Origin: a virus
IMG/VR virus record: IMGVR_UViG_3300025131_000104
Location: 1 to 41,112 of that record
Reading direction: 5' to 3' (one strand)
DNA length: 41,112 nucleotides
The position numbers were made by a program, and so were the translations under genes. Of the stretch, positions 12,025 to 41,112 are shown one piece after another (position 1 is the stretch's first letter; every line of letters starts with the position of its first letter). A model generated the notes under the pieces. The model made no database searches and was not told the DNA's origin. It saw nothing but the letters and a program-made list of their open reading frames with translations.

Positions 12025-12842
12025 AACAAAATTATGCAATTATAGGATTAGGTTTTATCAGTGATAGACATATTCAAGCCATAGAAGACACTGGTGGTAA
12101 GATATTATTATCTTGTGATATTGATAAAGAAAAAAAACATAAAGTTCCAGAAGCTAAGTTTTTTGAAAAATGGAAAGATATGATGAGAGATCCATTATTT
12201 AAAAAAATAGATTGTGTTGCTATTTGTACTCCTAATAATCTTCATTCTATTATGACTGCAACTTGTGCTTCATTTGGTAAAAAAGTTATATGTGAAAAAC
12301 CATTAGTAATAGATTACAAAGATTTTAAAACATTAAAAAAATATTCTCATTTAATTTATAGTGTTGTTCAATTAAGAAATAATCCAGAACTACAAAGAAT
12401 ACAAGAGTCTATAACAGATACAGCATCTTATCATGCAGAGTTTAATGTTTCTGTTCATAGAGGAGATTGGTATTTTGATACCTGGAAAGGAGATGATGAT
12501 AAATCAGGAGGATTACTTTTTAATATAGGAGTTCATTACTTTGATTTATTAACTTGGTTTTTTGGAGAACCTATCCAAATTATGAATGATTTAGTAACTG
12601 ATAAAGTAGCTAGAGGAAAAATAGGATTTAAAAATTGTAGTGCAAAATGGAATTTATCGATTGAACAACCTAAAGATAATCAGTATAGATATTTTAAATT
12701 AAATAAAGAAGCCATTAATCTTACAAAATATTTTGACAGCTTACACAAAAAGGTTTATGAAAATATGTTAAATGGTATAGGAGTGAGACTAAATGAAATA
12801 GAACCAACAATAAAATTAATAGAAAAGTTATATGGAAAATAA
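12021..12842 (+). CDS. Gfo/Idh/MocA oxidoreductase (WbpB/WlbA-like)
   Basis: 273 residues. The N-terminal IIGLGFISDRHIQAIEDTGG is very close to the start of WbpB/WlbA enzymes, which oxidise C3 of UDP-GlcNAc uronate and recycle NADH. CEKPL (Glu92-Pro94) is the family's signature, and GVHYFDLLTWFFG carries the catalytic region. It is shorter than typical members (about 310), mainly at the C-terminus. Together with the flanking aminotransferase and acetyltransferase this is the textbook WbpB-E-D set. Confidence 0.88.
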   Translation: MKQNYAIIGLGFISDRHIQAIEDTGGKILLSCDIDKEKKHKVPEAKFFEKWKDMMRDPLFKKIDCVAICTPNNLHSIMTATCASFGKKVICEKPLVIDYKDFKTLKKYSHLIYSVVQLRNNPELQRIQESITDTASYHAEFNVSVHRGDWYFDTWKGDDDKSGGLLFNIGVHYFDLLTWFFGEPIQIMNDLVTDKVARGKIGFKNCSAKWNLSIEQPKDNQYRYFKLNKEAINLTKYFDSLHKKVYENMLNGIGVRLNEIEPTIKLIEKLYGK

Positions 12843-12861
12843 TAATAAAAAGGAGAAAGAC

Positions 12862-13410
12862 ATGGAACCATTAATACAAGTTCATTCAACTGCTGTAATT
12901 GACAATGGCGCTCTTATTGGCATAGGTACAAGGATATGGCATTTTTGTCATATTATGGGAAATACAATTATTGGTGATAATTGCACTTTAGGACAAAATG
13001 TATTTGTTCAAGACGGTGCGATCATTGGTCATAATTGTAAAATACAAAACAATGTCTCAATTTATGATGGTGTTGTTTTAGAAAATGATGTGTTTGTCGG
13101 ACCATCAGCTGTATTTACAAATGTTAGAAAACCAAAGATTAACTCTCCAGTTGATCCAGATAAATACACAAAAACAATAGTACATGAAGGTGCTTCAATA
13201 GGAGCAAATGCTACTATAGTTTGTGGTGTAGAAATTGGTGAAAATGCAACTATAGGTGCTGGTTCCGTTATCACTAAGTCTGTTCCTCCAGGAGTAACCG
13301 TCGTTGGTAATCCAGCTGGTATTCTAGTTAGAGATATTACTGGAATAGCATTTGTAATTTCATTTGAAGAATATTTTATTAAAAAGAAAAAATATGAAAG
13401 AAAAAAATAA
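12862..13410 (+). CDS. UDP-sugar N-acetyltransferase, left-handed beta-helix (WbpD-like)
   Basis: 182 residues from the ATG at 12862, preferred over the in-frame ATG at 12832 because AAAAGGAGAAAG stands just before it. The sequence is made of hexapeptide turns (IGIGTRIWHFCHIMG, IIGDNCTLGQNVFV, IGANATIVCGVEIG), ending in VVGNPAGIL. HFCHIM and the GQNVFVQ segment match UDP-2-acetamido-3-amino-glucuronate acetyltransferases (WbpD/WlbB). It adds the second N-acetyl group using acetyl-CoA. The C-terminal tail is basic and overlaps the next gene. Confidence 0.9.
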   Translation: MEPLIQVHSTAVIDNGALIGIGTRIWHFCHIMGNTIIGDNCTLGQNVFVQDGAIIGHNCKIQNNVSIYDGVVLENDVFVGPSAVFTNVRKPKINSPVDPDKYTKTIVHEGASIGANATIVCGVEIGENATIGAGSVITKSVPPGVTVVGNPAGILVRDITGIAFVISFEEYFIKKKKYERKK

Positions 13411-15532: not shown

Positions 15533-16524
15533 GAAAAAAAATATTAACCGTTGTAGGTAATAGACCTCAACTAATAAAATACGATAAAAAATTAAAACAA
15601 GTTCTTTGTTATACTGGTCAACATTATGATAAAAGTCTTAAAGATGTTTTCTTTAAAGGTCTTAAACTACCTAAACCAGATTATGATTTAGGAAAAAAAA
15701 CATTAGGAGAGATAACAGATGGAATACAAGAAGTAATAAAAAAAGAAAAACCAGATTATGTTATGGTTTATGGAGACACAAGATCTACTCTAGCTGGTGC
15801 TATGGCTGCTTATTATTCTAATATACCCATAGTCCACATAGAAGCTGGATGTAGAAGTTTCAATGATGATCAAATAGAAGAAAGAATAAGAATACTAGTA
15901 GATAAAATAACTACTATACACCTGGCTCCTTCAGAAGAATGTGTCAATAGATTAGTAGAGGATGGACATAGATATATTTATAATGTTGGTGCTACTCAAC
16001 TAGATACAATGTGGGATACTTTTCCAACAAAGAAACCAAGAGATGCTAATAAATATTGTGTCTTAACATTACATAGAGCAGAAAATACAGATGATAAAGA
16101 AAAACTAAAAAGTATTTTTGAAGCATTGGGAGAATCTAAAAAGAAAATAAAGTTCTATCTTCATCCTAGAACAAAGGAAGCTATTAAAAAGTTTAAGTTA
16201 AAGTTACCTTCTAATATAAAAGTATTAAAACCAATACCTTATAAGAAGATGATACATACCATGGCTTTTGCAGAAAAAGTAATTACTGATAGTGGAGGAA
16301 TACAAGTAGAAGCATTTTTCTTAAATATTCCTTGTATAACACTTCGTGATGAAACAGAATGGCAAGAAACAGTTGATGATGGTTGGAATATATTAACAGG
16401 TGCTAATAAACAAAAAATATTAGATGCTCTTAAAAAAGGAAAAAGAGGTAAAAAGTATAATCCTAAAATATATGGGATTGGTAGAGCTAAAAAAAAGATT
16501 AAAGTAATATTACAAAGCTTATGA
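15529..16524 (+). CDS. UDP-GlcNAc 2-epimerase-like enzyme (WecB/WbpI family)
   Basis: 331 residues, a little shorter than the family (about 360). The start ILTVVGNRPQLIKY, the central VMVYGDTRSTLAGAMAAYY, HIEAGCRSF, LTLHRAENTD and the DSGGIQVEAF loop are the family's landmarks. WbpI converts UDP-GlcNAc3NAcA to UDP-ManNAc3NAcA; WecB converts UDP-GlcNAc to UDP-ManNAc. The presence of the WbpB/E/D set favours the former. Coupled by ATGA to the genes on both sides. Confidence 0.85.
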   Translation: MRKKILTVVGNRPQLIKYDKKLKQVLCYTGQHYDKSLKDVFFKGLKLPKPDYDLGKKTLGEITDGIQEVIKKEKPDYVMVYGDTRSTLAGAMAAYYSNIPIVHIEAGCRSFNDDQIEERIRILVDKITTIHLAPSEECVNRLVEDGHRYIYNVGATQLDTMWDTFPTKKPRDANKYCVLTLHRAENTDDKEKLKSIFEALGESKKKIKFYLHPRTKEAIKKFKLKLPSNIKVLKPIPYKKMIHTMAFAEKVITDSGGIQVEAFFLNIPCITLRDETEWQETVDDGWNILTGANKQKILDALKKGKRGKKYNPKIYGIGRAKKKIKVILQSL

Positions 16525-17666
16525 AAAAAGAAGAAAAATTAAAAGTTTATTTAGTAATTCCTCCAGTAGGAGATTGTGGTGTAGGTTATTATCGTCAATG
16601 GCTTCCACTTACTAAAGCAGAAGAAAAAGGAGAAATAGAATTAGTTTGTCAACATTTTACATGGGGAGAAAGAGGAGATGAAACTGGTAAAGAACCACCA
16701 ACAATAACAGAAGATGATACTTATAAATATGGTGAATGGGCTGATGTAATCTTTTTTTCAAGAAATGATGTACCAGGATATATAGCTCAAGCAGGTGGTA
16801 TGAAAGAATTCTTTAACAAATCTGTTATTTTAGATGTAGATGATAATGTTCAAGCAACAAGACCATTTAATCCAGGGTATAGATCCTTTCATCCTAATAG
16901 TCCCAACATGACTTGGAATATAAAATCTTTTGGTGTGTATGATGGATTTATATTTTCTACACAAGATTTAATAGATTATTATAAAAAATATGGAGATAAG
17001 AAAAAGTTTTATATTTATCCTAATAGTTTAGATTTTAAAAGAAGAGATGCTGTATTAGAAATGGATTTTAGTAAAAGTAAATTATTTAAGAAAAAAGAAG
17101 GTGAAATTAGAATAGGTTGGACTGGTTCTTCATCTCATTGGGAGAATCTTAAACACATAGAAAAACCATTATTAGATATACTTCGTAAATATCCTAATAC
17201 TACTTTCTATTATTCAGGATTATTTGGAGAATTATTTAATGATGAAAAGTTAATAAAAGATAAAAGAATAGTTAAAATACCATGGTCTAGTCTTAAAGAA
17301 TGGGCAAAAGTAAATAGAGAAATGAATTTTGATATAGCTTTAGCTCCTTTAACAGATAACTATTTTAATAGATCTAAAAGTAATCTTAGAGTTCTTGAAT
17401 ATGCTTCAGCTAAATATCCAGTAATATGTTCCAATGTTGCTCCATATCGTTGCTTTAAAGACAATAAAGAAGTCATATTTGCCACAGAGAAAGAGGAGTG
17501 GTATAATGCTATTGAAATGTTGGTAAATAACCCTGAAAAGCGACAGGAATTAGCCAATAATTTATATAATAGAGCTAAAAAGGACTATGATGTGGATAAA
17601 AATTACAAGATTTTAGTTAAAGCTCTAAAAAATATTAAGAAAAATTTTACGAGTATCAAAAAATGA
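16521..17666 (+). CDS. GT4-like glycosyltransferase
   Basis: 381 residues, GT-B fold. 'IPPVGDCGVGYYRQWLPL' at the N-terminus, IGWTGSSSHWEN opening the second Rossmann half, and 'IALAPLTDNYFNRSKSNLR' followed by LEYASAKYPVICSN with the donor-binding Glu. Proteins with this start and order are common in phage genomes, usually of unknown acceptor. As the last gene of the cassette it would transfer the finished sugar nucleotide to a protein or glycan. ATGA overlap with the epimerase gene. Confidence 0.85.
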   Translation: MKKEEKLKVYLVIPPVGDCGVGYYRQWLPLTKAEEKGEIELVCQHFTWGERGDETGKEPPTITEDDTYKYGEWADVIFFSRNDVPGYIAQAGGMKEFFNKSVILDVDDNVQATRPFNPGYRSFHPNSPNMTWNIKSFGVYDGFIFSTQDLIDYYKKYGDKKKFYIYPNSLDFKRRDAVLEMDFSKSKLFKKKEGEIRIGWTGSSSHWENLKHIEKPLLDILRKYPNTTFYYSGLFGELFNDEKLIKDKRIVKIPWSSLKEWAKVNREMNFDIALAPLTDNYFNRSKSNLRVLEYASAKYPVICSNVAPYRCFKDNKEVIFATEKEEWYNAIEMLVNNPEKRQELANNLYNRAKKDYDVDKNYKILVKALKNIKKNFTSIKK

Positions 17667-22174: not shown

Positions 22175-23182
22175 ATGAAACAAGATAATTTAAACTATCG
22201 ATATGGATTCGGTGCTAAAAAGGATAAGAAAGATAAGAGAGATTATTTAGCATCAGGAATTACTGCTCCAATTACAGTAGAATTGACAACTTTTAGAATA
22301 CCTGAAAAATATCCTAGTAAGAATCAAGGTGGTAGAGGTAGTTGTACTTCTCAAGCACAAACACATCATAAAGAAAGACAAGAGAAAATACCTTTATCTG
22401 CTAGATTTGTTATGGCTTTAACAAAACAGTGGGAACATAATAAAAGATGGGGTGCTTATACAAGAAATACTTTTAAGGTAGTAAAGCAATTCGGTGCTTG
22501 TAAAGAAGAATTATATCCTGAACCAAACTTTGAAATGAGTTGGAGAGATTACATTGATACTAATTCAATACCAGCAGAATGTTATGAAGATGCTTTAAAA
22601 CATAAATCTAAATCTTATTGGCGAGTTGAGAATTCTATATTAGCTATTAAAGATGTATTAACTAGACATAAGAAATCAATCGTAATGTCTATGGGATGGT
22701 ATAAAAACTTTAATAGAGTATTAGATGGAATATTACCAAGAGAGAAAGGTAAATATATTAGTGGACATGCAGTAGAGATAGTAGGTTTTGATGACTTTAA
22801 TCAATGGCTAATAGTAAAGAATAGTTGGGGAGAACATTGGGGAAAGAAAGGAGACTTCTATTTATACTATGATATGTTAGCAGAAGTAATAAGAGATTTA
22901 TGGTGTAGTCTAGATATAGAAAAAATGAATATATTAGTTGATGTAAGATATGGAAAAGAAAGAACTTGGAAATCTTATTTAGTAGAAAAACAAGTAGCAT
23001 TCAATTCCTGGCTACACGCAAAGATAAAAAGATTACCAACGAACAGAGAAATAAATGCTTTAGCTTATGGTAAGTGGGATTTTCAAACAGTATATACTGG
23101 CATTAATGGAGATATTTGGTTATACTGGACTAAAGACCAAGCTGAGAAAAGAAATTTAATTAAAGAATTTATTAATTATTAA
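22175..23182 (+). CDS. papain-like cysteine peptidase (C1 family)
   Basis: 335 residues. The catalytic set is complete: oxyanion Gln51 and Cys57 in NQGGRGSCTSQA, His198 in SGHAVEIVGFDD, and Asn216 in KNSWGEHWG. There is no signal peptide or propeptide, so it is probably cytoplasmic or packed in the virion. A C-terminal part (about 245-335) has no family I recognise and contains several Trp. Among phages, such enzymes may cut capsid proteins or act in lysis; no other endolysin is visible here. It starts 85 bases after the phosphoesterase, with a 6-bp IR (GATTAA/TTAATC) between them. Confidence 0.88.
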   Translation: MKQDNLNYRYGFGAKKDKKDKRDYLASGITAPITVELTTFRIPEKYPSKNQGGRGSCTSQAQTHHKERQEKIPLSARFVMALTKQWEHNKRWGAYTRNTFKVVKQFGACKEELYPEPNFEMSWRDYIDTNSIPAECYEDALKHKSKSYWRVENSILAIKDVLTRHKKSIVMSMGWYKNFNRVLDGILPREKGKYISGHAVEIVGFDDFNQWLIVKNSWGEHWGKKGDFYLYYDMLAEVIRDLWCSLDIEKMNILVDVRYGKERTWKSYLVEKQVAFNSWLHAKIKRLPTNREINALAYGKWDFQTVYTGINGDIWLYWTKDQAEKRNLIKEFINY

Positions 23183-26461: not shown

Positions 26462-27874
26462 ATGGCAATATATGAACCACAATCATTCTATGAAAGTACA
26501 CTTGCAGTAGCGATAGCTGCAGGAGATACTACAATCCAAGTAACTACAGCCCCAACAATGACTGAGGGTTTTATGGTCCTTGAAGCTAATACTTCTAATC
26601 GTGAGATTATCAAGTTTACTGGTGTAAGTGGAACTAACCTAACTGGCTGTGTGAGAGGATTAGCTTCTTATGGTAGTGATCAAAGTGCTGGAACAGGAAA
26701 GGCACATGCAGCAGGAATAGATATTGCGATGAGAAATGTCCATTATTATGAATCACAATATTATCTAGCTTTTACTGGAACTTCAGCAACAGGATATAAT
26801 GATTTTAGATTAGGTGATGGAGCAGCAGTTAGTTCTTCTGATAGATATTGGTATGTTCAAACTTCATCTGTATCAGCATTCTGGGGATTATCCTCAAGTG
26901 GACAAATGGTAGTATCTGAAGATGGAGCAACATCTTATGTTATTAGTGCTGGTGGTTCAGGAGTTACAGCTGGTGATGGAATAGATATTACAGGTGGAGC
27001 AGTAAGTGTAGATTCATTATCTACAAGTGGATTAAGAATCTCAGCATCTCAGTTAGCAGTTGATCACGATGGGGATACTATTAAATTATCTGCTAGTGGT
27101 TCATTATATTCCTCAGCTTCTAAAATGAACTTACTTGCTGGAATGGATTTAACTGCTGGTCAAGCATTACAAATTAGTGCAGATGGTAATACATATCCAA
27201 CTGATGCTAGAAATTCAACTTCTACAGCAAATTTTATTGGATTTGCTGCAGAAGCTATAACAGCAGATGAAACTGGTGCAGTAAGTGTATTATTTAATAC
27301 TGATCAAACAGGATTAACAGTAGGAGATGTATATTATTTAGCTGATGGTACAGAAACCTTAGTGTTAGATTTAGGAGAAATTAGTACCACTGGTCATTCT
27401 ACAGCTAGTTCAGGACATTGGATGTCATTTACAACTGCAGCTGGACAAACTGATATATCTGGTATGGGTGCTTATATGGTATGGAACTCAAGTGGTGGAA
27501 CTAATTTTACATTTACATTGTATGAAGGAGCAGGAAATGCAGGAGCTGTATTAGCAACAAAAACTTTTAGCTATACAGGTACTATAAGTACGTATTATTG
27601 GATAGAGAAAGCATTTGATATACCAGTTCCAGTATCAGAACTTACACAATATACTCTAGAAATAAAGTCTACTGGGATAATTATTTCATGGAGAATGAAT
27701 GATAATAATATTTATGCAGGAGGTGGATCAGATATAGATCCAACTTATGATTTCTTAATCAAAAGTTATAAAGTTAATAGTTATGGTACAATAGATACTT
27801 CTGCTGGAACTAATTCTAAAAAAGTAGGAATTGCTACTTCAGCAACAAGTATATTAATTAAAAACGATAATTAA
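26462..27874 (+). CDS. tail fibre protein, paralog 1
   Basis: 470 residues. The first 110 (QSFYESTLAVAIAAGDTTIQ, 'EANTSNREIIKFTGVSGTN', CVRGLASYGS) are about two-thirds identical to the next gene. A second shared block covers 'SSVSAFWGLSSSG' to 'GDGIDI'. The C-terminus (about 300-470) is unique and looks like a beta-sandwich of the carbohydrate-binding kind (LYEGAGNAGAVLATKTF, YWIEKAF). Likely receptor-binding protein with a common attachment part. Confidence 0.8.
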   Translation: MAIYEPQSFYESTLAVAIAAGDTTIQVTTAPTMTEGFMVLEANTSNREIIKFTGVSGTNLTGCVRGLASYGSDQSAGTGKAHAAGIDIAMRNVHYYESQYYLAFTGTSATGYNDFRLGDGAAVSSSDRYWYVQTSSVSAFWGLSSSGQMVVSEDGATSYVISAGGSGVTAGDGIDITGGAVSVDSLSTSGLRISASQLAVDHDGDTIKLSASGSLYSSASKMNLLAGMDLTAGQALQISADGNTYPTDARNSTSTANFIGFAAEAITADETGAVSVLFNTDQTGLTVGDVYYLADGTETLVLDLGEISTTGHSTASSGHWMSFTTAAGQTDISGMGAYMVWNSSGGTNFTFTLYEGAGNAGAVLATKTFSYTGTISTYYWIEKAFDIPVPVSELTQYTLEIKSTGIIISWRMNDNNIYAGGGSDIDPTYDFLIKSYKVNSYGTIDTSAGTNSKKVGIATSATSILIKNDN

Positions 27875-27880
27875 AAATAT

Positions 27881-29053
27881 ATGGCATTATACCAACCAGA
27901 ATCATTTTTTGACACAACACTAGCTTCAGCTATTACAGCTGATGCAGCTACTATTAGTGTTACCTCAGCACCAAATATAACAGAAGGTTATATGGTTATT
28001 GAAGCTAACACTTCTAATAGAGAAATAATTAAATATACAGGTGTCTCTGGTAATAATCTTACAGGTTGTGTTAGAGGACTTGCTTCATTTGGAAGTGATG
28101 ATAGTGCTGGTACAGGTAAAGCTCACGCTGCTGGTGTAGACGTAGCTAATAGAAATGTTCATTTCTACTATGCTGAATATTATAATGTCTTAGGTGGTAC
28201 TTCTGCTTTTCCAGGAGTCTCTACATTCTATGATTCTAATACTGTAACAATAGGTGATATGACTGGAGTAGAAGATACTAATAGATTTTTTTATACCGTT
28301 ACCAGTTCTGTTTCTGCTTTTTGGGGACTATCCTCAAGTGGTGCTTATGTTATTTCAGAAGATGGTTCTACTTCTTATGTAATATCAGCTGGTGGTAGTG
28401 GTGTTACTGCAGGAGATGGTATTGATATTAGTACTGGAGTAGTTAGTGTAGATAAATTATCTACAGGTGCATTAAGAATTTCATCTTCAAAATTAGCCGT
28501 TGGTGTTGATGGAGATACAATTCAAGTAAATGGCTCCAACCAATTATATAGTGCTGCATCTACTACTATTTTTAATGATTATACTGAACATAATCAAAGT
28601 AATAGTACTGATGAATTTACTATACTTACAGCTACTATACCAGCTAATACTTTAGGAACAACAGGAGGAATAGAGTGGAAAGTATATGTAAATACAAGTA
28701 ATAATAACAGTGGTACTGGTTGGATGTTTAAAGTATACTATGGTGCTATTGGTTCTCCAACAGAAGTAATTAATGCACAAGCACTGAATACTGGTAATCA
28801 AAAATTAGATGGTGTGACAGAGGGTATAATATTAGCAGCTGGTGCTACAGATTCTCAGGTTGCTAATATGAGTTTACACTTTGGTAATTACGAAGGTGAT
28901 ACAGGTCAGGAATTTGAACCTAAGTTAATTGGAGGTCAACCTGGAACATGTACAGAAGATAGTACTGTAGATTTAGAATTTAAAGTAACAATGAAATGTG
29001 GTGGTGCTAGTGGTGATATTTATTCTAGATTTGGTTACATAAGAAAATTATAA
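27881..29053 (+). CDS. tail fibre protein, paralog 2
   Basis: 390 residues. Shares the attachment half with paralog 1 (MALYQPESFFDTTLASAITA, EANTSNREIIKYTGVSGNN, GLASFGSDDSAGTGK). The C-terminal part (about 230-390) is different, with 'YTEHNQSNSTDEFTILTATI' and 'GIEWKVYVNTSNNN', resembling a fibre knob rather than a lectin-like domain. It follows paralog 1 by 6 bases. DNA has diverged, so the duplication is not recent. Two different tips on one base may give two receptors. Confidence 0.8.
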   Translation: MALYQPESFFDTTLASAITADAATISVTSAPNITEGYMVIEANTSNREIIKYTGVSGNNLTGCVRGLASFGSDDSAGTGKAHAAGVDVANRNVHFYYAEYYNVLGGTSAFPGVSTFYDSNTVTIGDMTGVEDTNRFFYTVTSSVSAFWGLSSSGAYVISEDGSTSYVISAGGSGVTAGDGIDISTGVVSVDKLSTGALRISSSKLAVGVDGDTIQVNGSNQLYSAASTTIFNDYTEHNQSNSTDEFTILTATIPANTLGTTGGIEWKVYVNTSNNNSGTGWMFKVYYGAIGSPTEVINAQALNTGNQKLDGVTEGIILAAGATDSQVANMSLHFGNYEGDTGQEFEPKLIGGQPGTCTEDSTVDLEFKVTMKCGGASGDIYSRFGYIRKL

Positions 29054-30661: not shown

Positions 30662-33600
30662 ATGGCTTTTTTTAGTGACATAGGTAAATCTTTTGCGAGA
30701 ATTGTATTGCCAAAATCTTGGGAATATAGATTAGGTATTACCCAAAGACCTATGGAATTTCCCATAGGAGAAGGAGAAGCAGACGAAGAAAGAGCACAAA
30801 GAACATTACTTGGTATAAAAGAAGAAGATCTAAAAGGTGTACAACCACTAACTAAAAGACCTTCTTTTAGTGCTGAATTTAGAGATGAAGCAGCAGAGAG
30901 AGTAAAACTTGAAATACAGAGTGGTACTTTTGATAAAGAAAAAATAAAAAATAGTCTAAAATCACTTGCTAAACAAAAAGTTAATGAAGCAATATTAAAG
31001 AAAAGATTTGATGAAGGAAAAGATTTATGGACTTTTGAAACGGTAAAAGGGAGACCAGCTGAATATGCAAAAGATGTTTTTGATAAAGATTGGGGAAGAA
31101 ATGCAAAGGAAATTGTACAAGGAATAGGAGTATTGCTTGGAATGGGTAGTAGACGTGCTTGGGAGAAATTAAAACATCCAATTAAAACTACAAAACAAGA
31201 AATAGAATTTGCTAAAAATATAGCCACATCTCCAGAATATCGTGAAGAAATTTATGAGAAATATATTGATCCAATAGTAGAAGAATATAAGGAATATCGT
31301 CATCCTTTTCAAAAATTAGCAGAAGATCCATTAGATGTTTTTTTAGATGCTACAGCAATCGCAAGTTTAGGAGGAATGGCAGGTATTAAACCCCTTGAAA
31401 AAGCATCAAAAGTTTTAAGTATTAAGAATGTATCTAATACTACAAAGAATATTATTAAAAAAGTAATACCTGACGGAGAAAATTTAATTAAAAATATAGA
31501 AGTAGCAAAAGGAACAAGAAAATTATTACAAAAAGAAGCTGTAGCACATTTATCTTCTAGAGCTAGAATTATAAATGAGATAAATAGCACTATAAATAAA
31601 TTATCAAAAGAAGAAGCTGCAATACTTCCAAGAATTGTAGAAGGTTTTAGTAAACCACCACCAGGTACTACTAATGAATTTCAGAGAGCAGTAGGATTAA
31701 TCCGTTCTTTAGCTGCAGATCAAGAAAAGTTTGGATATAAAGTTGGATCACTTACTCCAGAAGTTGTACAAAGACGTAAGTTTCAACCATTAGCAAAATT
31801 TTTAGAGAGTGAAAAAAAATTTGAATTTCCTGCTAAAGGGGTAAAAACTTTAGATGTTAAAATACCAACTAAAAATTATGGGAAAATCAGAGATGTTATT
31901 CTAGACAAGCCATCAAAAGATCCCTTTTCAGAAAGTATAATTTTTAGTAAAGTAAAATCAGCTCCAATAGATTCGTTTACAAATAAACAATTTAATAGAA
32001 AGTTTGTTGATAAAATACTTAATGATATTAGGGCTGGTAAACAGATAGAACCCATTATTGTTGATGGTACTAGAATTGTAGATGGAAATCATACTGCTAC
32101 TGCATTAAAAGAGCTTGGTTTTGATGATATGCCAGTGGTTTTTATGGATGATTATTTAGCTTCTAAAGCATCTCTTATTTCATCAAAATATAATAATTTT
32201 GTTGGGGGTAAAACAATCAAAGGTGAAAAAGCTATTCCTTGGGAAAAATTAACTGGTGATAATTTAAGAAGAGGTATTGAATCTATTAAAACTTTTTTTC
32301 CTGATGCAGATCCTATTTATATGCGTCATTTTTTTGAAGATACACCTGCAAACTTTAGTAAGTTCTTTTTAAATACTCAACCTGTTAGATCATTTAAACC
32401 TGGATTTTTAAAAAAATCTTATGGAGTAGAAGGATATATAGGAGCAGGATTAAAAACAACAAAAAAAGAATTAAAAGATATTTTAACTAGACAAAGTGTA
32501 GAAAATTTAAAATGGCAACGTAATATAGATTTAATTAATAAGGTGAAAGAAAGTCCATATGTTAAACCATTAAAAGCAGGAGAACAATTATTACCAGGAT
32601 ATAAAGTATTTGCTCCAGATGGTCTTCTAAGATTTTATCGTGGAACAATAAATTTAACTGATACATTAAAAAAGAATATTAATGTAGGGGAAGATGTTTT
32701 TGAAGTTTTTACTGAGTCAATTAAAAAAGCATTTCCAGATTTATCATTAGATGAAATAAAAAAATCATATTTAGGTGTAACAAAATCAAAAGTATATCAA
32801 GTTCCTGACGCAATGGCTAATCAACTTTCAAAAATAACTAAAAGTGGTAATAGTTTTGTTAAATTATTTTGGGATAAACCGATTGATGCATTTAGATTTG
32901 CTGCCTTAGGTCTTATGCCTCGATGGAATGTTAATAATATTGTTGGTAATACTATATTTAGTATTATGACTGGTGATATTTTCACTCCTAAATTATTTAT
33001 ACAATCTCAGAGAGCTAGAAAACAAGGGTTATTACCTGATGAATTATTTGGTGGTCTTCATCAAGTAGAAAGAACAACAAGTGGTAAGTTAGGTCCAGCA
33101 GCAGAAATTCCCTTAGTTAAATCATCTATTGCACTTCATGATAAATTATTAAATACAAAAGTAATTGGTCCGATTGTTAAAAATATAGAAAAAGCAGTTA
33201 ACTGGTCAGTATTTAAACCTCTTCAAAAGATAGGTAATTGGTCTTTTAAAGCTAATCAATATATTGATGAATTATTTAAAGGTGTTGGATATATTAGTGC
33301 AGGACTTAAAGCTGATAGAAAAAGTTTTATGCAAAGGAGTATTGCTAGTTTTGAGGATGTTGAAAAAATGTTAAAGAAAACAGGTAAAAATGCTGCTAAA
33401 GTAGACGAGTTAGTAGAAGGGGTACATAAATGGTATTATCATGGATTAAATTTGACAGATGTTGAAAGACGTGTGGTAAGAAAAATTATTCCTTTTTATT
33501 CTTGGATGAGATGGATTACAGAATATTCCTACAGAGTAGCTACTGAAGCACCTGTACGAGCAAATATTATTAAAAATTCTGCTCGTAGTTATTATATGAT

Positions 33601-34381
33601 GACTGGTCAAAATGAATTACCTTCATGGTTAAGAGGTGCTGTACCATTAGGAAATGATGAAGATGGTACAGTTTATTATTTAAAAACAACAGGAATGAAT
33701 CCTTTTGATACTATAACCGATTTAATGAGTGAAGGAGTTGCTGGATTAGCATTACAAAGTTCTGCACCAGGAATCAAAACATTCGTAGAACGAGCAACGG
33801 GAAAAGAAATATTTTTAGGTAGACAATTTACAAAAGAAGGTATAATTCAATCATTTAGTGGTCAACTATATAAGGTAGATCCCGAAACAGGAAAAGCTGA
33901 AGTTGTAGAAGAAACAATAAAACCAAAATTAATGGAACATCTTTTAAGAAATTATGTTCCACAGTATCTTTTAATGGAAACAATATTAACGGGTGGTCGT
34001 CAAAGATATACAGCCGAAGGACTAGATACTATTTTATCTGATTTATTTAAAGAAGAGAAAGATAGAAAAGCTATTATTAAAGATGTTATCACTCATCAAG
34101 GAGTTGAGAAAAAGAAATTTTGGAATGAAATAGGTAAAGCACTTGGTATAAATATACAAGAAACAGAACCCGAACAAATATTAGGAAGTGAAAAAGCAGT
34201 AGAAAGAGCTACTACACAAGCTTTATATAGAGAATTACCTTTATTAAATCCTCGTTTTAAATTAATGGTACGAGAAAGAATGGCACAAGAAATAGCAGAA
34301 GGAACTCCTAAAGAAGAAATAAAAGCTAAACTTGAACAGTGGCTTCTAATTAATGCTGAAGAACTTAAAAAATTAAAATAA
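30662..34381 (+). CDS. large polyvalent-type virion protein with ParB-like and helical domains
   Basis: 1239 residues, the longest protein here. About residues 440-500 (LNDIRAGKQIEPIIVDGTRI, 'VDGNHTATALKELGFDDM') form a ParB/sulfiredoxin-like fold with the GNHT segment. Residues about 740-770 have 'FAALGLMPRWNVNNIVGN' and about 945 'IPFYSWMRWITEY', both typical of the 'large polyvalent protein' group found in phages and conjugative elements. The rest is helical. Such proteins are thought to be injected with DNA. This gene ends the rightward block, the usual place for the ejection or internal core protein. Confidence 0.75.
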   Translation: MAFFSDIGKSFARIVLPKSWEYRLGITQRPMEFPIGEGEADEERAQRTLLGIKEEDLKGVQPLTKRPSFSAEFRDEAAERVKLEIQSGTFDKEKIKNSLKSLAKQKVNEAILKKRFDEGKDLWTFETVKGRPAEYAKDVFDKDWGRNAKEIVQGIGVLLGMGSRRAWEKLKHPIKTTKQEIEFAKNIATSPEYREEIYEKYIDPIVEEYKEYRHPFQKLAEDPLDVFLDATAIASLGGMAGIKPLEKASKVLSIKNVSNTTKNIIKKVIPDGENLIKNIEVAKGTRKLLQKEAVAHLSSRARIINEINSTINKLSKEEAAILPRIVEGFSKPPPGTTNEFQRAVGLIRSLAADQEKFGYKVGSLTPEVVQRRKFQPLAKFLESEKKFEFPAKGVKTLDVKIPTKNYGKIRDVILDKPSKDPFSESIIFSKVKSAPIDSFTNKQFNRKFVDKILNDIRAGKQIEPIIVDGTRIVDGNHTATALKELGFDDMPVVFMDDYLASKASLISSKYNNFVGGKTIKGEKAIPWEKLTGDNLRRGIESIKTFFPDADPIYMRHFFEDTPANFSKFFLNTQPVRSFKPGFLKKSYGVEGYIGAGLKTTKKELKDILTRQSVENLKWQRNIDLINKVKESPYVKPLKAGEQLLPGYKVFAPDGLLRFYRGTINLTDTLKKNINVGEDVFEVFTESIKKAFPDLSLDEIKKSYLGVTKSKVYQVPDAMANQLSKITKSGNSFVKLFWDKPIDAFRFAALGLMPRWNVNNIVGNTIFSIMTGDIFTPKLFIQSQRARKQGLLPDELFGGLHQVERTTSGKLGPAAEIPLVKSSIALHDKLLNTKVIGPIVKNIEKAVNWSVFKPLQKIGNWSFKANQYIDELFKGVGYISAGLKADRKSFMQRSIASFEDVEKMLKKTGKNAAKVDELVEGVHKWYYHGLNLTDVERRVVRKIIPFYSWMRWITEYSYRVATEAPVRANIIKNSARSYYMMTGQNELPSWLRGAVPLGNDEDGTVYYLKTTGMNPFDTITDLMSEGVAGLALQSSAPGIKTFVERATGKEIFLGRQFTKEGIIQSFSGQLYKVDPETGKAEVVEETIKPKLMEHLLRNYVPQYLLMETILTGGRQRYTAEGLDTILSDLFKEEKDRKAIIKDVITHQGVEKKKFWNEIGKALGINIQETEPEQILGSEKAVERATTQALYRELPLLNPRFKLMVRERMAQEIAEGTPKEEIKAKLEQWLLINAEELKKLK

Positions 34382-34386
34382 TTTTA

Positions 34387-34830
34387 TTAGTCTTTTTTGA
34401 TATATTTAAGCAGCTGATTAACAGCTGTTTTTACATTATTTAATTTGTAAGAAAGTTCTCTATCATCTTTAATCTCCTCTGTGTGGCTTATATTTGCGTT
34501 CTGACGAGTTATCTCAAATAAATCGTACAAAGAAAGCACAATGTAGGGTTCAGGATTTATATCAGGAGACTTAGGATGTTTAAATACTAACATGGATATG
34601 TTAGCGTCATTGTCTTGTCTCTTCATTTGTTCTATCCAATCTACTATTACTAGATTCTTATGGTTCTTTGCTTCAAGAACCCAGTTAAGTTGAGGACATC
34701 TTATGTCTGCCTTCTCTAGTCCTGCTCCAGAACCAAATACTCTGTAAGTTTTCTCATCTAATTCTTTAAGTTCTTCTACTATAAACCTTTCGAACTTAGC
34801 TCCTTTAACTTTTCTGGTTACATTTTTCAT
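34387..34830 (-). CDS. PD-(D/E)xK nuclease, Holliday-junction-resolvase-like
   Basis: 147 residues. GAKFERFIVEELKE (Glu14), then 'GLEKADIRC' (Asp42) and 'WVLEAKNHK' (Glu53-x-Lys55) make the PD-(D/E)xK site of archaeal Hjc-type resolvases. It would cut branched replication or recombination DNA, possibly before packaging. It is the last leftward gene, 5 bases from the end of the converging virion block, so the two transcripts face each other. Confidence 0.82.
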   Translation of the reverse strand: MKNVTRKVKGAKFERFIVEELKELDEKTYRVFGSGAGLEKADIRCPQLNWVLEAKNHKNLVIVDWIEQMKRQDNDANISMLVFKHPKSPDINPEPYIVLSLYDLFEITRQNANISHTEEIKDDRELSYKLNNVKTAVNQLLKYIKKD

Positions 34831-34832
34831 AA

Positions 34833-35120
34833 TTAATATTGATTATAAGCTTCTGTGTTAAGTACATCAATGTAAGTTTTGATAGCTGTCATTTTTAATT
34901 CTTTACTTCTCATGGAAAGTTTTATTTTTATTTCTTCTATTCCTTCGTCTGTTGCTTCCCATTTTCTATCTGCTTCTGCTGCTGATTTACTTTCCTCTCT
35001 TAGATTTTGCCAGGTCTTTGCTTTTACTTCTTTTAATTTAACAAGTCTTTCACCTAACTTTGCATGTTGGTAAGCAAGATCTAATCTTTCTTGAGCTAAT
35101 TCTCTAGGTGTTTTAGTCAT
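34833..35120 (-). CDS. 95-residue helical protein, unknown
   Basis: Charged helix throughout: 'RLDLAYQHAKLGERLVKLKE', then 'LREESKSAAEADRKWEA' and 'KLSMRSKELKMTAIKTYID'. It overlaps the end of the HU-like gene by 8 bases and lies 2 bases before the nuclease gene. Similar helical proteins sit beside phage recombination genes; no function known. Confidence 0.65.
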   Translation of the reverse strand: MTKTPRELAQERLDLAYQHAKLGERLVKLKEVKAKTWQNLREESKSAAEADRKWEATDEGIEEIKIKLSMRSKELKMTAIKTYIDVLNTEAYNQY

Positions 35121-35391
35121 TTATTTTTCGTCTTAATGTTATAGAAGATTTAAACTTTAGATGTTTCATCGGAGGTAATATTGTTCCATCTAAATTAGAT
35201 TTTCTACCTTTATTTTCTTGTATAAAAAAATCACCAAATTCATGTAAGTGAAGTCTTAAACCATCTGATGAAATATCTACTGCATAAAATTTGAATCTAT
35301 CTATAACATCTTCTACTTGTTTAAGTGTGCAACCTAAATCTGCTGCTATCATGTGTATTAGTTCTGGTTCGTTTATTTTAATTTGTTTCAT
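35113..35391 (-). CDS. HU/IHF-like DNA-binding protein
   Basis: 92 residues, the normal length. 'ELIHMIAADLGCTLKQVEDVI' is the HU N-terminal helix pair, 'RLHLHEFGDFFIQENKGRKS' is the strand leading into the DNA-binding arm, and 'HLKFKSSITLRRKIND' is the C-terminal helix. The arm is shortened and lacks the usual Pro-rich tip. It overlaps the FG-GAP gene by ATGA and has a TTAGGAGA site inside that gene, so the two are coupled. Confidence 0.8.
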   Translation of the reverse strand: MKQIKINEPELIHMIAADLGCTLKQVEDVIDRFKFYAVDISSDGLRLHLHEFGDFFIQENKGRKSNLDGTILPPMKHLKFKSSITLRRKIND

Positions 35392-36911
35392 TCTCCTAAT
35401 ATTAAATATACTTGTCCTGAGTCTGCACCTGCTTCTTCATTTTCTCTGGCTCCTACAATAAAATCTTTATGCCCATCACCATTCACATCACCTACACCTG
35501 CTACTACTGCACCACTATTATCAATTTCATTTTCTCCTAAGTAAGATAAGTCTGCGTTAGCTAAGTTTATATCGTTTGTCCAACCTGTGTTTCTTCCTAA
35601 AATCAAATAGGTTTTTCCTTTACTCTTTATCTCATTCACATCTGTACCACCATAACCTGCTGAACCAATAACGAAATCATCAAAGCCGTCATCATTAAAA
35701 TCACCTATACCTGAAAGATTGGCACGGCATTCATACATGTCTTTAATATTTTCTCCTATGTAAGAAGCATCTGAATTACTCAGACTTAAGTTATTACTCC
35801 AACTATTTTCTTTACCTAAAATAATATAAACTTTTCCTGTTGAACTGTTATGATAATCGCTGGCTAAAATAAAATCATTATAGTTGTCATTATTAATATC
35901 TCCAGCACCATCTAAACAAAAGCCACTCATGTCTCCACTATTTTCTCCCACAAAAGATGCGTCTGCTGTTGATAAATTAACATCCATTTGCCAACCACTT
36001 TCTTTTCCAAAAATTAAATAAGTTTTACCACTGTATCCTGAGTAACCATACGCATTAATTATGAAGTCAGATATGTTATCTCCGTTAACATCTTTTACTC
36101 CAGCTACTGAAGCTCCGCTCTGATCCCCACTATTCTCACCGATGAAAGATGCATCAGCTGTGCTAAGATTAGTATTTAAAGACCAACCAGTTGCTTTACC
36201 AAAAAATATATAAGTCTGACCAGAGTCAGCTCCCCCCTCATCACTCCCATAAGCACCAATAGCAAAGTCATCAAGGGAGTCATTATTAATATCTCCTATT
36301 CCATCTATGTTTGAATATTCCCAATCAGTTTGATTTGAATCTTCTTCCCAAATAAAAGAGGCATCAGCATTAGAAAGACTCACATTGTTTTGCCATCCAT
36401 CAGCTTTGCCTAAAATTAAATAAGCTTTTGCTTCTTGTTCTACCCATCCCCAACCACCAATAATAAAATCATCGTAACCATCTCCATTTATATCATCTAC
36501 TCCAGCTAAAGAATAACCCATAAGATCTAAGTTATCTTCTCCGATAAAGGATGCGTCTGCTCCTAAAAGATTAGTATCCATACTCCAACCATCTGCTTTT
36601 CCAAATATAATGTATACCTTACCAACATAATCGTCATTACTATCTTGATAGTGTGTAGCTCCCATTGCAAAATCTTCTAAGTTATCTCCATTAATATCTC
36701 CTATACCTGTAATGGAATGACCTAGCTTTGCTCCTGGATCTGCTAAGAAAGAAGCATCACTGTTAGCTAATTCTTTTTCTAAAGTAGCTGATCTAGTAAA
36801 AGGTTTAGGTGGTGGTTTAATGTTTAAGGAATGAATATGTTTACCAAAAGCAAAACTACCCTGAGGAATAAGAAAGATTAATAACATTAAAATCGTATTT
36901 ATTTTTTTCAT
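35388..36911 (-). CDS. secreted FG-GAP (integrin-alpha-like) beta-propeller protein
   Basis: 507 residues. A signal peptide (MKKINTILMLLIFLIPQGSFA, cleavage after GSFA) is followed by about seven units of the form 'G-(D)-(D)-INGDGYDDFIIGG', then 'KVYIIFGKADGW' and 'NADASFIGE'. The Dx(N/D)xDG loops should bind calcium, and each unit forms a blade as in integrin alpha. No membrane anchor is seen at the C-terminus, so it should be released or held by the wall. A secreted propeller in a phage early block is unusual: superinfection exclusion or adhesion are possible. It lies in the same direction as, and is coupled to, HU-like and nuclease genes. Confidence 0.88.
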   Translation of the reverse strand: MKKINTILMLLIFLIPQGSFAFGKHIHSLNIKPPPKPFTRSATLEKELANSDASFLADPGAKLGHSITGIGDINGDNLEDFAMGATHYQDSNDDYVGKVYIIFGKADGWSMDTNLLGADASFIGEDNLDLMGYSLAGVDDINGDGYDDFIIGGWGWVEQEAKAYLILGKADGWQNNVSLSNADASFIWEEDSNQTDWEYSNIDGIGDINNDSLDDFAIGAYGSDEGGADSGQTYIFFGKATGWSLNTNLSTADASFIGENSGDQSGASVAGVKDVNGDNISDFIINAYGYSGYSGKTYLIFGKESGWQMDVNLSTADASFVGENSGDMSGFCLDGAGDINNDNYNDFILASDYHNSSTGKVYIILGKENSWSNNLSLSNSDASYIGENIKDMYECRANLSGIGDFNDDGFDDFVIGSAGYGGTDVNEIKSKGKTYLILGRNTGWTNDINLANADLSYLGENEIDNSGAVVAGVGDVNGDGHKDFIVGARENEEAGADSGQVYLILGE

Positions 36912-36924
36912 ATATTTTTGTTTA

Positions 36925-36997
36925 ATCTCTTATAAGCACCTCAACTATACGAAAGGAACTTTGTGTAAGTAACACCGCTGAGATGCTTGTAAGAGAT
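36925..36997 (-). promoter_or_regulatory. 19-bp stem-loop in the leader of the FG-GAP gene
   Basis: Arms at 36925-36943 and 36979-36997 pair over 19 positions with one mismatch and one G-U, with a 35-base loop. It ends 13 bases before the start codon at 36911. A smaller GGCG/CGCC hairpin lies upstream at about 36997-37019. Such a structured leader could control translation or protect the mRNA. Confidence 0.65.
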
Positions 36998-37033
36998 GGC
37001 GAACCCATGCATTCACCGCCTCTTAATTACCGA

Positions 37034-37042
37034 ATTATACCA
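37034..37042 (-). promoter_or_regulatory. extended -10 promoter for the FG-GAP gene
   Basis: On the minus strand TGG directly precedes TATAAT, an extended -10 element; no good -35 is visible at 16-18 bases. It would start a leader of about 110 bases that carries the hairpins before the FG-GAP gene. Confidence 0.45.
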
Positions 37043-37088: not shown

Positions 37089-37334
37089 CTACTCAGTAAC
37101 TTTTTTCTTTTCCATGTATTTTTTAATTGCTTTACTTTGTATTACTTTCCATCTTTCGGGATGTTTCTCTCTCCATTCATAGGAAAGTCTTTTTATATTT
37201 TCTCTATAGTCAGGTTTAGTTTTCCATCTATTTCTGCCATAACAAATATTACACATTCCAAAAGCATAATGTTTATTCTCTGTCGTTTTACATTTCAGAC
37301 ATTTTTTATATTTTTTTGACCATTGTTTTTTCAT
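37089..37334 (-). CDS. 81-residue zinc-finger protein, HNH-associated type
   Basis: CLKCKT near residue 12 and CNICYGRNRWKTKPDYREN at about 27 give a Cys4 finger, followed by a very basic helix rich in Arg and Lys. This is the N-terminal half of many small phage HNH proteins, without the nuclease part. The next gene upstream (37339-37773) has both halves. It may be a split or shortened relative. No Shine-Dalgarno. Confidence 0.6.
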   Translation of the reverse strand: MKKQWSKKYKKCLKCKTTENKHYAFGMCNICYGRNRWKTKPDYRENIKRLSYEWREKHPERWKVIQSKAIKKYMEKKKVTE

Positions 37335-37338
37335 AATT

Positions 37339-37773
37339 CTACTTAAAAGGATTATTCTCTTTGTAATTAATGTGCTGTTGGAGATGATGTTTCTTACATA
37401 ACCAGATAATATCTAAATGTTTTCTATAATCTGTGTGGTGTGCTTCTACCTCTTTGTCTCCACATGTCTCACATGCTTCTTTAATTAATTTTCCACTTCT
37501 TAAATACCTATTAACTTTCATTCTTGCTTTCTGTTTACCAGGAAATTTTAGATTTGATTTTCTTTTGTACTCTCTTAATTGTAATTTTCTTCTTAATTTT
37601 TGTGTTCGATCCTTTTCATATTCTAGTATCTGTTTTCTTTTCTTATAATATCTTCTTTTAACATCTTTTCTGGTACAAAGTTTACATTTACCAAGACGCT
37701 TGTCTTTCATTTCATGATGCCAATAAAATTTAGATAAAGGTTTTTTTATTTTACATTTGAAGCATCTTTTCAT
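37339..37773 (-). CDS. HNH endonuclease with N-terminal zinc finger
   Basis: 144 residues. CFKCKIKKPLSKFYWHH and CKLCTRKD form an N-terminal Cys4 finger, followed by a Lys/Arg-rich helix. The C-terminal HNH domain has ACETCGDKEVEAHHTDYRKH and CKKHHLQQH, giving the His-His pair and metal Cys ligands. Enzymes of this shape nick DNA, often as homing enzymes. It sits 5 bases after the SSB-like gene, so it may be part of a replication unit or a free-standing mobile gene. Confidence 0.82.
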   Translation of the reverse strand: MKRCFKCKIKKPLSKFYWHHEMKDKRLGKCKLCTRKDVKRRYYKKRKQILEYEKDRTQKLRRKLQLREYKRKSNLKFPGKQKARMKVNRYLRSGKLIKEACETCGDKEVEAHHTDYRKHLDIIWLCKKHHLQQHINYKENNPFK

Positions 37774-39346: not shown

Positions 39347-40108
39347 TCATCTCTTATAATTAATTATATCTTTAATGTGTCCTCCAAATTCTAAATAATT
39401 TCCATCTGATCCTTTAACTTTTAACTTACCTCCAACTCTTTTAACTTCCTGAGTTCCATAATACATTTTATCTTTTTCAATATCTTCTTTTATTTTAAGT
39501 CGTGCTTCGATCTTATCTAATTTGCGCCACAGGGAGCCAGGACTTTCTATCACATAAGGATATTCTTTGAAGCTTTTAGCTTTTCGCGCAAAAGCCAGTA
39601 AGTTTTTTTTATCGCCAAATCTTTTAATGAGTTTAGCTAAATCTTTATAAGCAGTTTTATTTTCTCTTAAAGGAAAATCAAAAATTTTAGAAAGTTCGAC
39701 TAATATATATTTATATATATTATTCTTTACATTATTGTTTATGTATCGTCTGCTGTCCTTCTGCTGTATCGTTTGCTGTTCCTTCTGATAATCTTCATAG
39801 TTTAAAATGGTTATTATTGTTGTAATAAATCTATCTTTCTGCTGTTCTATCTGCTGTATCGTTTCTAAGTAATTTAAAAAACGCCTAACTTTGTTCCTAC
39901 TCCACTGCCATCTCTTCGCCATTGTTAGTTCTGACCATCCAAGCTGTCCTCTTCCTATATCTACAAAATTACCTCTTATTTGGATGGTTCTTTTTTTATG
40001 ATTAGCAAATAAAATTAGATCAACCCAAGCTTGCCCTTTGGTAAAAGGTTCATTAAACCATAAAGGGTTATCTTCTATTTTTCTATGTAATTTAATCCAT
40101 CCACTCAT
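39347..40108 (-). CDS. probable replication initiator (DnaD/replisome-organiser-like)
   Basis: 253 residues from the ATG at 40108 (the frame continues to 40138, but that lies in the leader stem). GWIKLHRKIEDNPLWFNEPF, 'AWVDLILFANHKKRTIQIRG' and 'GQLGWSELTMAKRWQWSRNK' are typical of phage replication organisers with an N-terminal winged helix, followed by a Gln-rich linker and a helical C-terminal half of the DnaD kind. It would load the host helicase at the origin. No helicase or polymerase is found in the window. Confidence 0.75.
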   Translation of the reverse strand: MSGWIKLHRKIEDNPLWFNEPFTKGQAWVDLILFANHKKRTIQIRGNFVDIGRGQLGWSELTMAKRWQWSRNKVRRFLNYLETIQQIEQQKDRFITTIITILNYEDYQKEQQTIQQKDSRRYINNNVKNNIYKYILVELSKIFDFPLRENKTAYKDLAKLIKRFGDKKNLLAFARKAKSFKEYPYVIESPGSLWRKLDKIEARLKIKEDIEKDKMYYGTQEVKRVGGKLKVKGSDGNYLEFGGHIKDIINYKR

Positions 40109-40114
40109 ATATTT

Positions 40115-40203
40115 AACTAACAAAAAGAGCATGACCACTGGAAAGCCCTAAACCAAGGCGATGATCATGCTCTTTTCGACAATTAAATATTAAATTGTTA
40201 GTT
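40115..40203 (-). promoter_or_regulatory. two-layer stem-loop leader of the replication initiator
   Basis: Inner stem: 40123-40136 and 40163-40176, 14 bp with one mismatch or G-U, loop 26 bases. Outer stem: AACTAACAA (40115-40123) with TTGTTAGTT (40195-40203), 9 bp, stacked on the 3' side. It ends 6 bases before the start codon at 40108, so it could hide the initiation region. The T-run after the inner stem on the minus strand may also allow termination. Confidence 0.65.
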
Positions 40204-40259: not shown

Positions 40260-40305
40260 ATCAGTTATCTTTGCGACTCCTGTTATCGGGTTGCGCTTAA
40301 CTGAT
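40260..40305. terminator. bidirectional terminator after the acidic peptide gene
   Basis: Outer stem ATCAGTTA/TAACTGAT (8 bp) and inner stem GCGACTC/GGGTTGC (7 bp with two G-U). On the minus strand seven T's follow, on the plus strand CTTTTTC. It would stop the small-gene transcript ahead of the replication promoter. The window's first base falls inside the same element. Confidence 0.7.
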
Positions 40306-40337
40306 CTTTTTCTATGTATAATTTCTGCGAAGATTAT

Positions 40338-40421
40338 TTATTCTTCGGTAGCTTCTTCTTCAAAAGCTTCTTCCGCAGTTTCTTCTTCCACTGCTTCAAC
40401 ATTTTGTTCTTCATCACTCAT
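40338..40421 (-). CDS. 27-residue acidic peptide, right copy
   Basis: Same start and length as 66-149; the two differ by several substitutions (for example EETAEEAFEE here) but stay almost all Glu. Kept reading frame and composition in two diverged copies support it being a real gene. Confidence 0.5.
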   Translation of the reverse strand: MSDEEQNVEAVEEETAEEAFEEEATEE

Positions 40422-40450
40422 AATTATTTTTGTTAATAATTAACTAAAAA

Positions 40451-40497
40451 AATAATAGCAAATATTGATCCTTTTGGCAAATCTATTTGCTATTATT
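40451..40497 (-). terminator. 14-bp perfect hairpin with U-run on the minus strand
   Basis: AATAATAGCAAATA (40451-40464) and TATTTGCTATTATT (40484-40497) pair fully around a 19-base loop, with TTTTTTT next on the minus strand. It stands between the tiny frame at 40504-40536 and the acidic peptide. In the left copy the second arm is destroyed. It includes an SD-like linker at about 40495-40508 that has no ATG. Confidence 0.6.
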
Positions 40498-40503
40498 CCT
40501 TTC

Positions 40504-40536
40504 TTAATTAATCTCGTTCTTATTTAATACTGACAT
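40504..40536 (-). other. 10-codon reading frame behind a full SD linker
   Basis: MSVLNKNEIN, then stop; AGAAAGGAATAAATAT precedes the ATG at an ideal distance. The terminator hairpin follows. It could be a leader peptide of an attenuator, or the remnant of a lost gene. Confidence 0.3.
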
Positions 40537-40554
40537 ATATTTATTCCTTTCTAT

Positions 40555-40794
40555 TTAGTTAATTTTTTCTAATTCTAAATCTCCTTTTTCATTTTCTTCA
40601 TATTGCCAACACTCATCATTAGGAAAGATAACTGATTTATTATTATATACTTCTATGGAATCACTGTTATCGCTTCTAATATAGTGGCTTTCCCCTATTT
40701 CCTTAAAAGTATTTCCCTCACTATCTATTGATAATAACACTTCGTTATTTTGTGGTTGAGCCTTTAATAACTCAATAAGTTCTTTTATTTTCAT
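40555..40794 (-). CDS. 79-residue small phage protein (MKIKELIELL family), right copy
   Basis: Ends identical or nearly so to the 73-residue protein at 441-662; the middle (residues about 35-58) is different and longer. Conserved linker and start. Function unknown; see the left copy. Confidence 0.7.
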   Translation of the reverse strand: MKIKELIELLKAQPQNNEVLLSIDSEGNTFKEIGESHYIRSDNSDSIEVYNNKSVIFPNDECWQYEENEKGDLELEKIN

Positions 40795-40814
40795 ATATTT
40801 ATTCCTTTCTTAAA

Positions 40815-41000
40815 TTATTTATTAAAACAACGAAAACAACAAGTTTGAGTATAACCATCAAACCAACCATCACCTTCTGTATCTTCTCTTTGACAGTGAG
40901 CTTGGGCTTCTTTAAGTGTTAAGCCCTTTTTGATAACTCTTTTTTTAAAATTATCTCTAAAATATCTGATAATTTTATAATGTTTATTACATTCTTCCAT
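40815..41000 (-). CDS. 61-residue protein of the widespread 'GLTLKEAQAHC' family
   Basis: HYKIIRYFRDNFKKRVIKKG leads into LTLKEAQAHCQREDTE and ends with DGYTQTCCFRC. Small proteins with RIIR.Y.D, R...GLTLEEAQAHC and a following WFDGY are common in phages of many hosts, of unknown function. In the left copy this slot holds the unrelated protein at 700-879. Confidence 0.75.
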   Translation of the reverse strand: MEECNKHYKIIRYFRDNFKKRVIKKGLTLKEAQAHCQREDTEGDGWFDGYTQTCCFRCFNK

Positions 41001-41017
41001 AAGTTTATTCCTTTCTA

Positions 41018-41112
41018 TTAATTATTAATAATATTGTCATATTCCAGAAAGTCATTATACCAATTCTCGTTTTCTTCCCCACCATAAAAGCCATTTATAT
41101 ATGCTTCTTGTA
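41018..41112 (-). CDS. 3' part of the 80-residue gene seen at 898-1140
   Basis: 31 codons plus stop side of the gene, cut by the window end at its 5' side. Nearly the same sequence as 898-992. It shows that the sequence continues into a copy of the left end. Confidence 0.7.
   Translation of the reverse strand, partial: QEAYINGFYGGEENENWYNDFLEYDNIINN

Follow-up and report, generated by a model that had tools for sequence, protein, structure and literature searches.

Why would a tailed phage carry, among its replication genes, a gene for a predicted exported protein folded like the head of an integrin? FG-GAP propellers are cell-surface recognition modules in bacteria and animals. The case described here lies in IMG/VR record IMGVR_UViG_3300025131_000104, a tailed phage whose entire 41-kb virus record constitutes the window (the whole stretch of DNA analyzed, 41,112 nucleotides). 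A preliminary, sequence-only reading of this DNA had proposed a secreted propeller coupled to HU-like and nuclease genes, possibly acting in surface exclusion of rivals, in adhesion, or as a moron that helps the host.

The window is divided by strand. Plus-strand genes (3446-34381) encode terminase, portal, head and tail proteins, and include an inserted sugar-nucleotide/glycosyltransferase cassette. Minus-strand genes at both ends form the early block, with a DnaD-like helicase loader (39347-40138; phrog_2514, E = 4.1e-22) that marks this strand as the replication strand, an HNH endonuclease, an HU-like protein and a PD-(D/E)XK/RusA-like nuclease. The propeller gene shares the minus strand with the loader and both nuclease genes, opposite the structural genes, in keeping with the early-block location first proposed. 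The ends of the record (1-992 and 40273-41112) overlap imperfectly, with ~80% identity over 819 aligned bases; the outer edges are perfect and the small genes between them differ. This overlap suggests a genome that is in essence complete and whose assembly combines two strain variants. In these end segments circular closure failed across the variants, and early gene content is variable. No lysogeny family (integrase, repressor or temperate partition system) was found among the window ORFs scanned against PHROGs, which were all but a few small ones. The cassette between the head and tail genes (9379-17666), partly common to the sister phage L005, encodes an epimerase, a DegT aminotransferase, a GFO/IDH oxidoreductase, a hexapeptide transferase, a GT2 plus methyltransferase, a UDP-GlcNAc 2-epimerase and a further glycosyltransferase.

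The propeller gene occupies exactly the ORF at 35388-36911 on the minus strand and encodes 507 amino acids. Its product matches Pfam FG-GAP (PF01839) with E = 2.3e-33 and 113.9 bits, against a curated cut-off of 22.1, in seven separate stretches, and the seven-bladed domain extends over residues 46-507 (35391-36776). Each of the seven blades contains a perfect DxNxDxxxD calcium loop, beginning at residues 72, 140, 207, 274, 338, 404 and 475; these loops are spaced 64-71 residues apart and together span residues 72-80 to 475-483 (35463-36698). In 2000 shuffles of the mature sequence the motif occurred 0.07 times on average and at most twice. The expectation of about seven calcium-binding blades is thereby borne out, and we infer that the loops would be occupied by calcium. 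The mature protein is very acidic (pI 4.05). Besides one spurious borderline match, the Pfam families found on it are all of FG-GAP type; the borderline match, to PF01759 (NTR), was rejected, being barely at its cut-off with no single stretch that passes. A chimeric or misplaced bacterial gene was likewise rejected from sequence features, with a GC3 of 0.19 inside the phage range (0.10-0.28) and an overlap with the neighboring gene. No close bacterial donor was found, the best genome match being a KSB1 MAG at 36% identity and plasmid matches staying below 35%.

An AlphaFold2 model built with ten sequences (the window propeller and related loci) has a mean pLDDT of 78.5 and a pTM of 0.82, and shows a helix at residues 2-13 followed by disorder at residues 14-46. 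All 50 matches listed by Foldseek against the PDB are integrin alpha heads (best E 1.6e-15). VIA-align superposes residues 46-507 onto such heads with Z of 33-35 and an rmsd of ~3 over 370-390 residues, and a PDB sequence search also reaches integrin alpha-V (4e-11). Structure prediction, which had been put forward as a check, thus returns a seven-bladed propeller with integrin alpha heads as its best matches. Because the fold match spans residues 46-507, the entire mature protein is predicted to be a single integrin-like seven-bladed propeller with a short linker.

The FG-GAP family itself is well known in bacteria. Bacterial integrin-type propellers bear the calcium motif in all seven blades, and their FG-GAP/Cage motif includes an aromatic-Gly(-aromatic) and a Pro in each blade (Chouhan et al., 2011, PMC3192720). 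The window protein resembles them in its seven blades, its full set of calcium loops and its integrin-head fold. However, it is single-domain and phage-borne, and it lacks the strict Cage/GAP features: the Cage pattern (with F, Y, W or H as aromatics) has no match in it and the GAP tripeptide is missing, so it is not filed as a strict integrin-type member. Bacterial FG-GAP/VCBS propellers are mostly secreted interaction modules, among which tachylectin/PVL-like lectins form a sugar pocket with a GW motif in loop DA' (PMC8023676). With the VCBS supercluster (which includes tachylectins and PVL lectins), in which single-propeller proteins are known, the window protein shares a DxDxDG-type loop AB, a signal sequence, GKxxGW in the assigned loop CD (6/6, allowing one Gly-to-Ser and one Lys-to-Arg substitution), and a short helix in several assigned CD loops of the AlphaFold2 model. 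Unlike the lectins, it has no sugar-pocket GW in loop DA'; no GW occurs between strand D and the next strand A, and the GW that is present falls in the assigned loop CD, so the motif does not support a lectin claim.

The N-terminus of the protein, MKKINTILMLLIFLIPQGSFA followed by FG, has the features of a Sec signal peptide (residues 1-21, 36849-36911, minus strand): a KK n-region, an 11-residue core with a mean hydropathy of 2.83, and SFA at positions -3 to -1, with cleavage predicted between SFA and FG. This call comes from a simple scan of the window ORFs for h-region, charge and the -3,-1 rule, rather than from SignalP. Three ORFs pass the scan, namely the propeller, a Rossmann-fold N-terminus and a 65-aa single-TM ORF, and that of the propeller appears to be the only convincing signal peptide among them. 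A search by sequence and Pfam revealed no lipobox, Por tail, C-terminal hydrophobic stretch or other recognized anchor, and the sequence-only reading was right to propose a clear signal peptide and no anchor. Its term “secreted” is too strong: in a diderm host the propeller would remain periplasmic until lysis, because no outer-membrane route or anchor is recognized, and “exported” is the more fitting word.

The gene heads a tight four-gene run on the minus strand (propeller, HU-like protein, 95-aa protein, nuclease) that includes two overlaps, one of 4 nt and one of 8 nt. The first of these is the ATGA at 35388-35391 that had been noticed at the outset, where the propeller gene meets the ORF for a 92-aa HU-like DNA-binding protein (35113-35391; PF00216, E = 4.7e-7; phrog_379, E = 2.6e-6). 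The second joins the HU-like gene to one for a 95-aa protein with no assigned function (34833-35120), and the run ends with a 147-aa PD-(D/E)XK endonuclease/RusA-like resolvase (34387-34830; PF24608, PDDEXK_15, E = 6.8e-8; phrog_244, E = 3.4e-17). Upstream, on the same strand, lie a small CxxC protein of 81 aa (37089-37334; from the ORF list and PHROGs scan) and an HNH-type endonuclease of 144 aa (37339-37773; phrog_2340, E = 5.3e-28), and the proposed nuclease neighborhood is thus found on both sides. From this layout we infer an early or middle timing of expression.

The 177 nt 5' of the propeller gene contain no gene on the minus strand; they hold an extended -10 box and a folded leader. 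The box, TGGTATAAT (37034-37042, minus strand), is a perfect match located just 5' of the leader, with transcription predicted to start at ~37027. However, it has no good -35 and is not listed by a two-hexamer promoter scan, and the motif is only slightly more frequent in the window than chance predicts (11 occurrences, 5.7 expected); the promoter of its own once ascribed to the gene is therefore plausible at most. A segment of 124 nt running just beyond the start codon folds at -37.2 kcal/mol (z = -4.4), and none of 200 shuffles is as stable, in agreement with the structured leader first noted. Folding gives a long hairpin of stacked 8- and 12-bp helices (36925-36997, minus strand), which ends 13 nt before the start codon, and a short 7-bp hairpin (36998-37017, minus strand). 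A weak SD-like AAGAGA is located in the 3' arm of the long hairpin, so control of propeller translation by this hairpin is possible. Rfam offers no family at gathering level, with chance-level matches alone at E up to 10. No second copy of the leader was found as an exact 24-mer match in IMG/VR, and phage records give short AT-rich blastn matches alone. Judged by its predicted fold, the leader (36925-37017) may represent a novel regulatory RNA of the phage.

Across 50,697 phage records, tblastn detects a homologue only in Synechococcus phage B23. This protein, gp119 (QGT54734.1; MN695335.1 64215-65840, corresponding to L003 7803-9428), resembles the window protein in consisting of a hydrophobic N-terminal segment and seven FG-GAP blades alone, in its four-base ATGA overlap with the next gene, within a block of small genes, and in its position outside any recognized structural block. 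By contrast, the two share only ~30% identity, and gp119 resides in a 243-kb Kyanoviridae genome among unrelated neighbors. It is annotated as the flagellar hook-length control protein FliK, yet its sequence is that of an FG-GAP propeller of seven blades behind a hydrophobic, signal-like N-terminus. The sole homologue in an isolate is thus itself a lone propeller, and no close homologue proved to be a virion protein, the finding that would have told most against the sequence-only reading. The sister phages L004, L005 and L006, 56-60% identical to the window in its 1239-aa protein, have no FG-GAP domain in a search in which the window gives seven matches as a positive control, the sister records possibly being incomplete. 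On this comparison the propeller gene appears to be accessory.

Scans of IMG/VR with alignments yielded about 20 FG-GAP loci, of which several belong to large surface proteins of bacterial type that contain RTX-like repeats. The phage contigs L023 and L024 encode a 454-aa signal-peptide FG-GAP protein directly after genes for an ERF annealing protein and an exonuclease, a close analogue, in an unrelated phage, of the arrangement in the window; they differ in their 27% identity to the window propeller, in having fewer recognizable blades, and in the second exported protein that follows. The locus L002, likewise clearly of phage context, carries an FG-GAP lipoprotein. Unrelated phage contigs thus seem to carry signal-peptide FG-GAP proteins independently. 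Viral FG-GAP domains of cellular origin are also present in prasinovirus MntV1 (PMC11467894) and in giant viruses (BFVD matches), but these are eukaryotic viruses, in which the domains have been proposed as attachment proteins (PMC11467894).

A third phage group, distinct from the lineage of the window, comprises the IMG/VR contigs L015, L016, L017, L036 (= L019), L025 and L026. In these phages a signal-peptide FG-GAP protein adjoins the endolysin on the opposite strand, and Por-type tails are present on both propellers tested (L015 and L025). Their portals are 80-96% and their endolysins 66-92% identical, whereas the propellers share 24-41% identity in all pairs except L016/L017 (84%); in the pair L036/L025 the portals are 94.9% and the propellers 24.2% identical. 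The distance between portal and propeller identities points to a cargo that is swapped or diversifying fast, and the locus would turn over very rapidly. The propeller of L015 is 48% identical to one at a Cloacimonetes MAG locus (L021) whose flanks look non-phage, which is above its identity to the propellers of its sister phages and argues for exchange of exported propellers between bacteria and phages. Outside the lineage of the window, such propellers thus appear to be exchanged and quickly replaced or diversified. Each cargo locus of this group (~5.6-12 kb) contains the FG-GAP protein together with very large secreted proteins, mostly ~17-48% identical between members.

The early-block operon, the export signal, the lone calcium-dependent scaffold, the accessory spread and the fast change in analogous cases fit best with an envelope-acting cargo. 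The reading we tentatively favor, while holding it to be far from assured, is that the gene is bacterial-type accessory cargo of an early or middle operon, and that its product is an exported envelope-binding module most likely to serve superinfection exclusion or envelope remodeling. On this view a tailed phage in which no lysogeny genes were detected would have taken up the gene from bacteria and would probably transcribe it early or in the middle of infection together with the HU-like protein and the nuclease. Its product would be exported via Sec, lose its signal peptide, and take the form of a rigid seven-bladed integrin-like propeller in the envelope space, where calcium is present. Most likely it would bind a protein or glycan of the envelope or surface of the infected cell and thereby impair adsorption or injection by later phages, or change the surface in some other way; lysis would release it. 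Computation gives good support to this scheme as far as export; the ligand and the exclusion or remodeling role in it are conjecture. The divergence within the L015-type group is, by analogy, as expected of cargo touching a changing partner. Among small proteins that phages produce and export during infection, such as T5 Llp, N15 Cor and T4 Sp, a role in superinfection exclusion is common, and the window protein would resemble them in being phage-encoded, exported (by prediction) and made during infection. They are, however, small and not propellers, and we know of no characterized exclusion protein that is one. Against this reading it also counts that the GW motif of the carbohydrate pocket is missing and that, with no outer-membrane exit or anchor, the propeller might be kept from the outer surface of a diderm cell altogether.

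The same export signal could serve an adhesin or aggregation factor, by which infected cells would adhere to one another, to uninfected neighbors or to particles and so aid the spread of progeny after lysis. The mostly secreted, interacting nature of bacterial FG-GAP/VCBS propellers (PMC8023676) agrees with this, as do the many relatives found within large surface proteins of RTX type or with Por tails. However, a lone propeller with no anchor, repeat or second binding domain makes a poor adhesin unless oligomeric, and the gain would be short-lived in a lytic infection; we consider this role rather unlikely. A predicted soluble, exported and anchorless protein of such acidity might instead act once freed at lysis, as a decoy or protector that binds glycans, or receptors on debris and neighbors, sparing the progeny dead envelopes or blocking competitors. 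Late expression would then be predicted, yet the gene lies among those for replication, and no receptor is known, which makes the proposal improbable. No better odds can be given to a moron benefiting the host cell in a long carrier or lysogenic state. The apparent own promoter, the structured leader and the secreted FG-GAP cargo opposite late genes in other phage contigs speak for it, but the lack of any integrase, repressor or temperate partition system in a window with overlapping ends, an apparently complete genome, weakens the lysogen version of that early suggestion.

If the hydrophobic N-terminus were not a signal peptide, the protein could be a virion component, a fiber or head decoration. 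Distant Foldseek matches to propellers in annotated virion proteins of the cyanophages S-TIM5 and S-ShM2 and in a short tail fiber keep this role alive, but they are weak (query TM 0.36-0.42). The gene stands outside and opposite the structural module, in its tight run with the HU-like and nuclease genes, and the N-terminus is a textbook signal peptide; a virion role is unlikely, and we give it little credence. An inhibitor of periplasmic or tail lysozyme, as the XAC2610-related NCBIfam label implies, is scarcely credible. The total score to NF047539 (51.9 bits, where 35 is the cut-off) is summed over seven repeats from ~30 residues of the calcium-loop region, no stretch passes singly, and unrelated FG-GAP proteins score likewise; the XAC2610/PliI label was therefore rejected as an artefact of summed repeats.

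Beyond this phage, exported integrin-like propellers may be a recurrent cargo that tailed phages have acquired independently; such cargo would lie next to genes for recombination or lysis, change much more quickly than the core of the phage, and serve as exchangeable envelope recognition modules for exclusion or surface remodeling. We regard this broader view as a doubtful but possible one. If true, it would provide testable candidate exclusion or host-surface proteins across several phage lineages. Among the open-access papers listed on FG-GAP with phage or prophage, none reports phage-exported FG-GAP propellers, a weak negative given that subscription papers fall mostly outside this scope.

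Several other genes of the window stand out. A papain-like cysteine peptidase (22175-23182; PF00112, E = 4.5e-12) is encoded in the structural region, and a similar gene, judged by eye, seems to be present in L004 at 14039-15100. The 1239-aa late protein (30662-34381) includes a ParB/Srx-like segment at residues ~441-506 that is seemingly missing from the sister proteins of L004 and L005; the segment is likely a domain gain, and the protein that bears it is likely an internal virion component. The adjacent proteins encoded at 26462-27874 and 27881-29053 have similar starts (MAIYEPQSFYESTLA and MALYQPESFFDTTLA) and both match one region of L004, which points to a tandem duplication of a probable tail protein.
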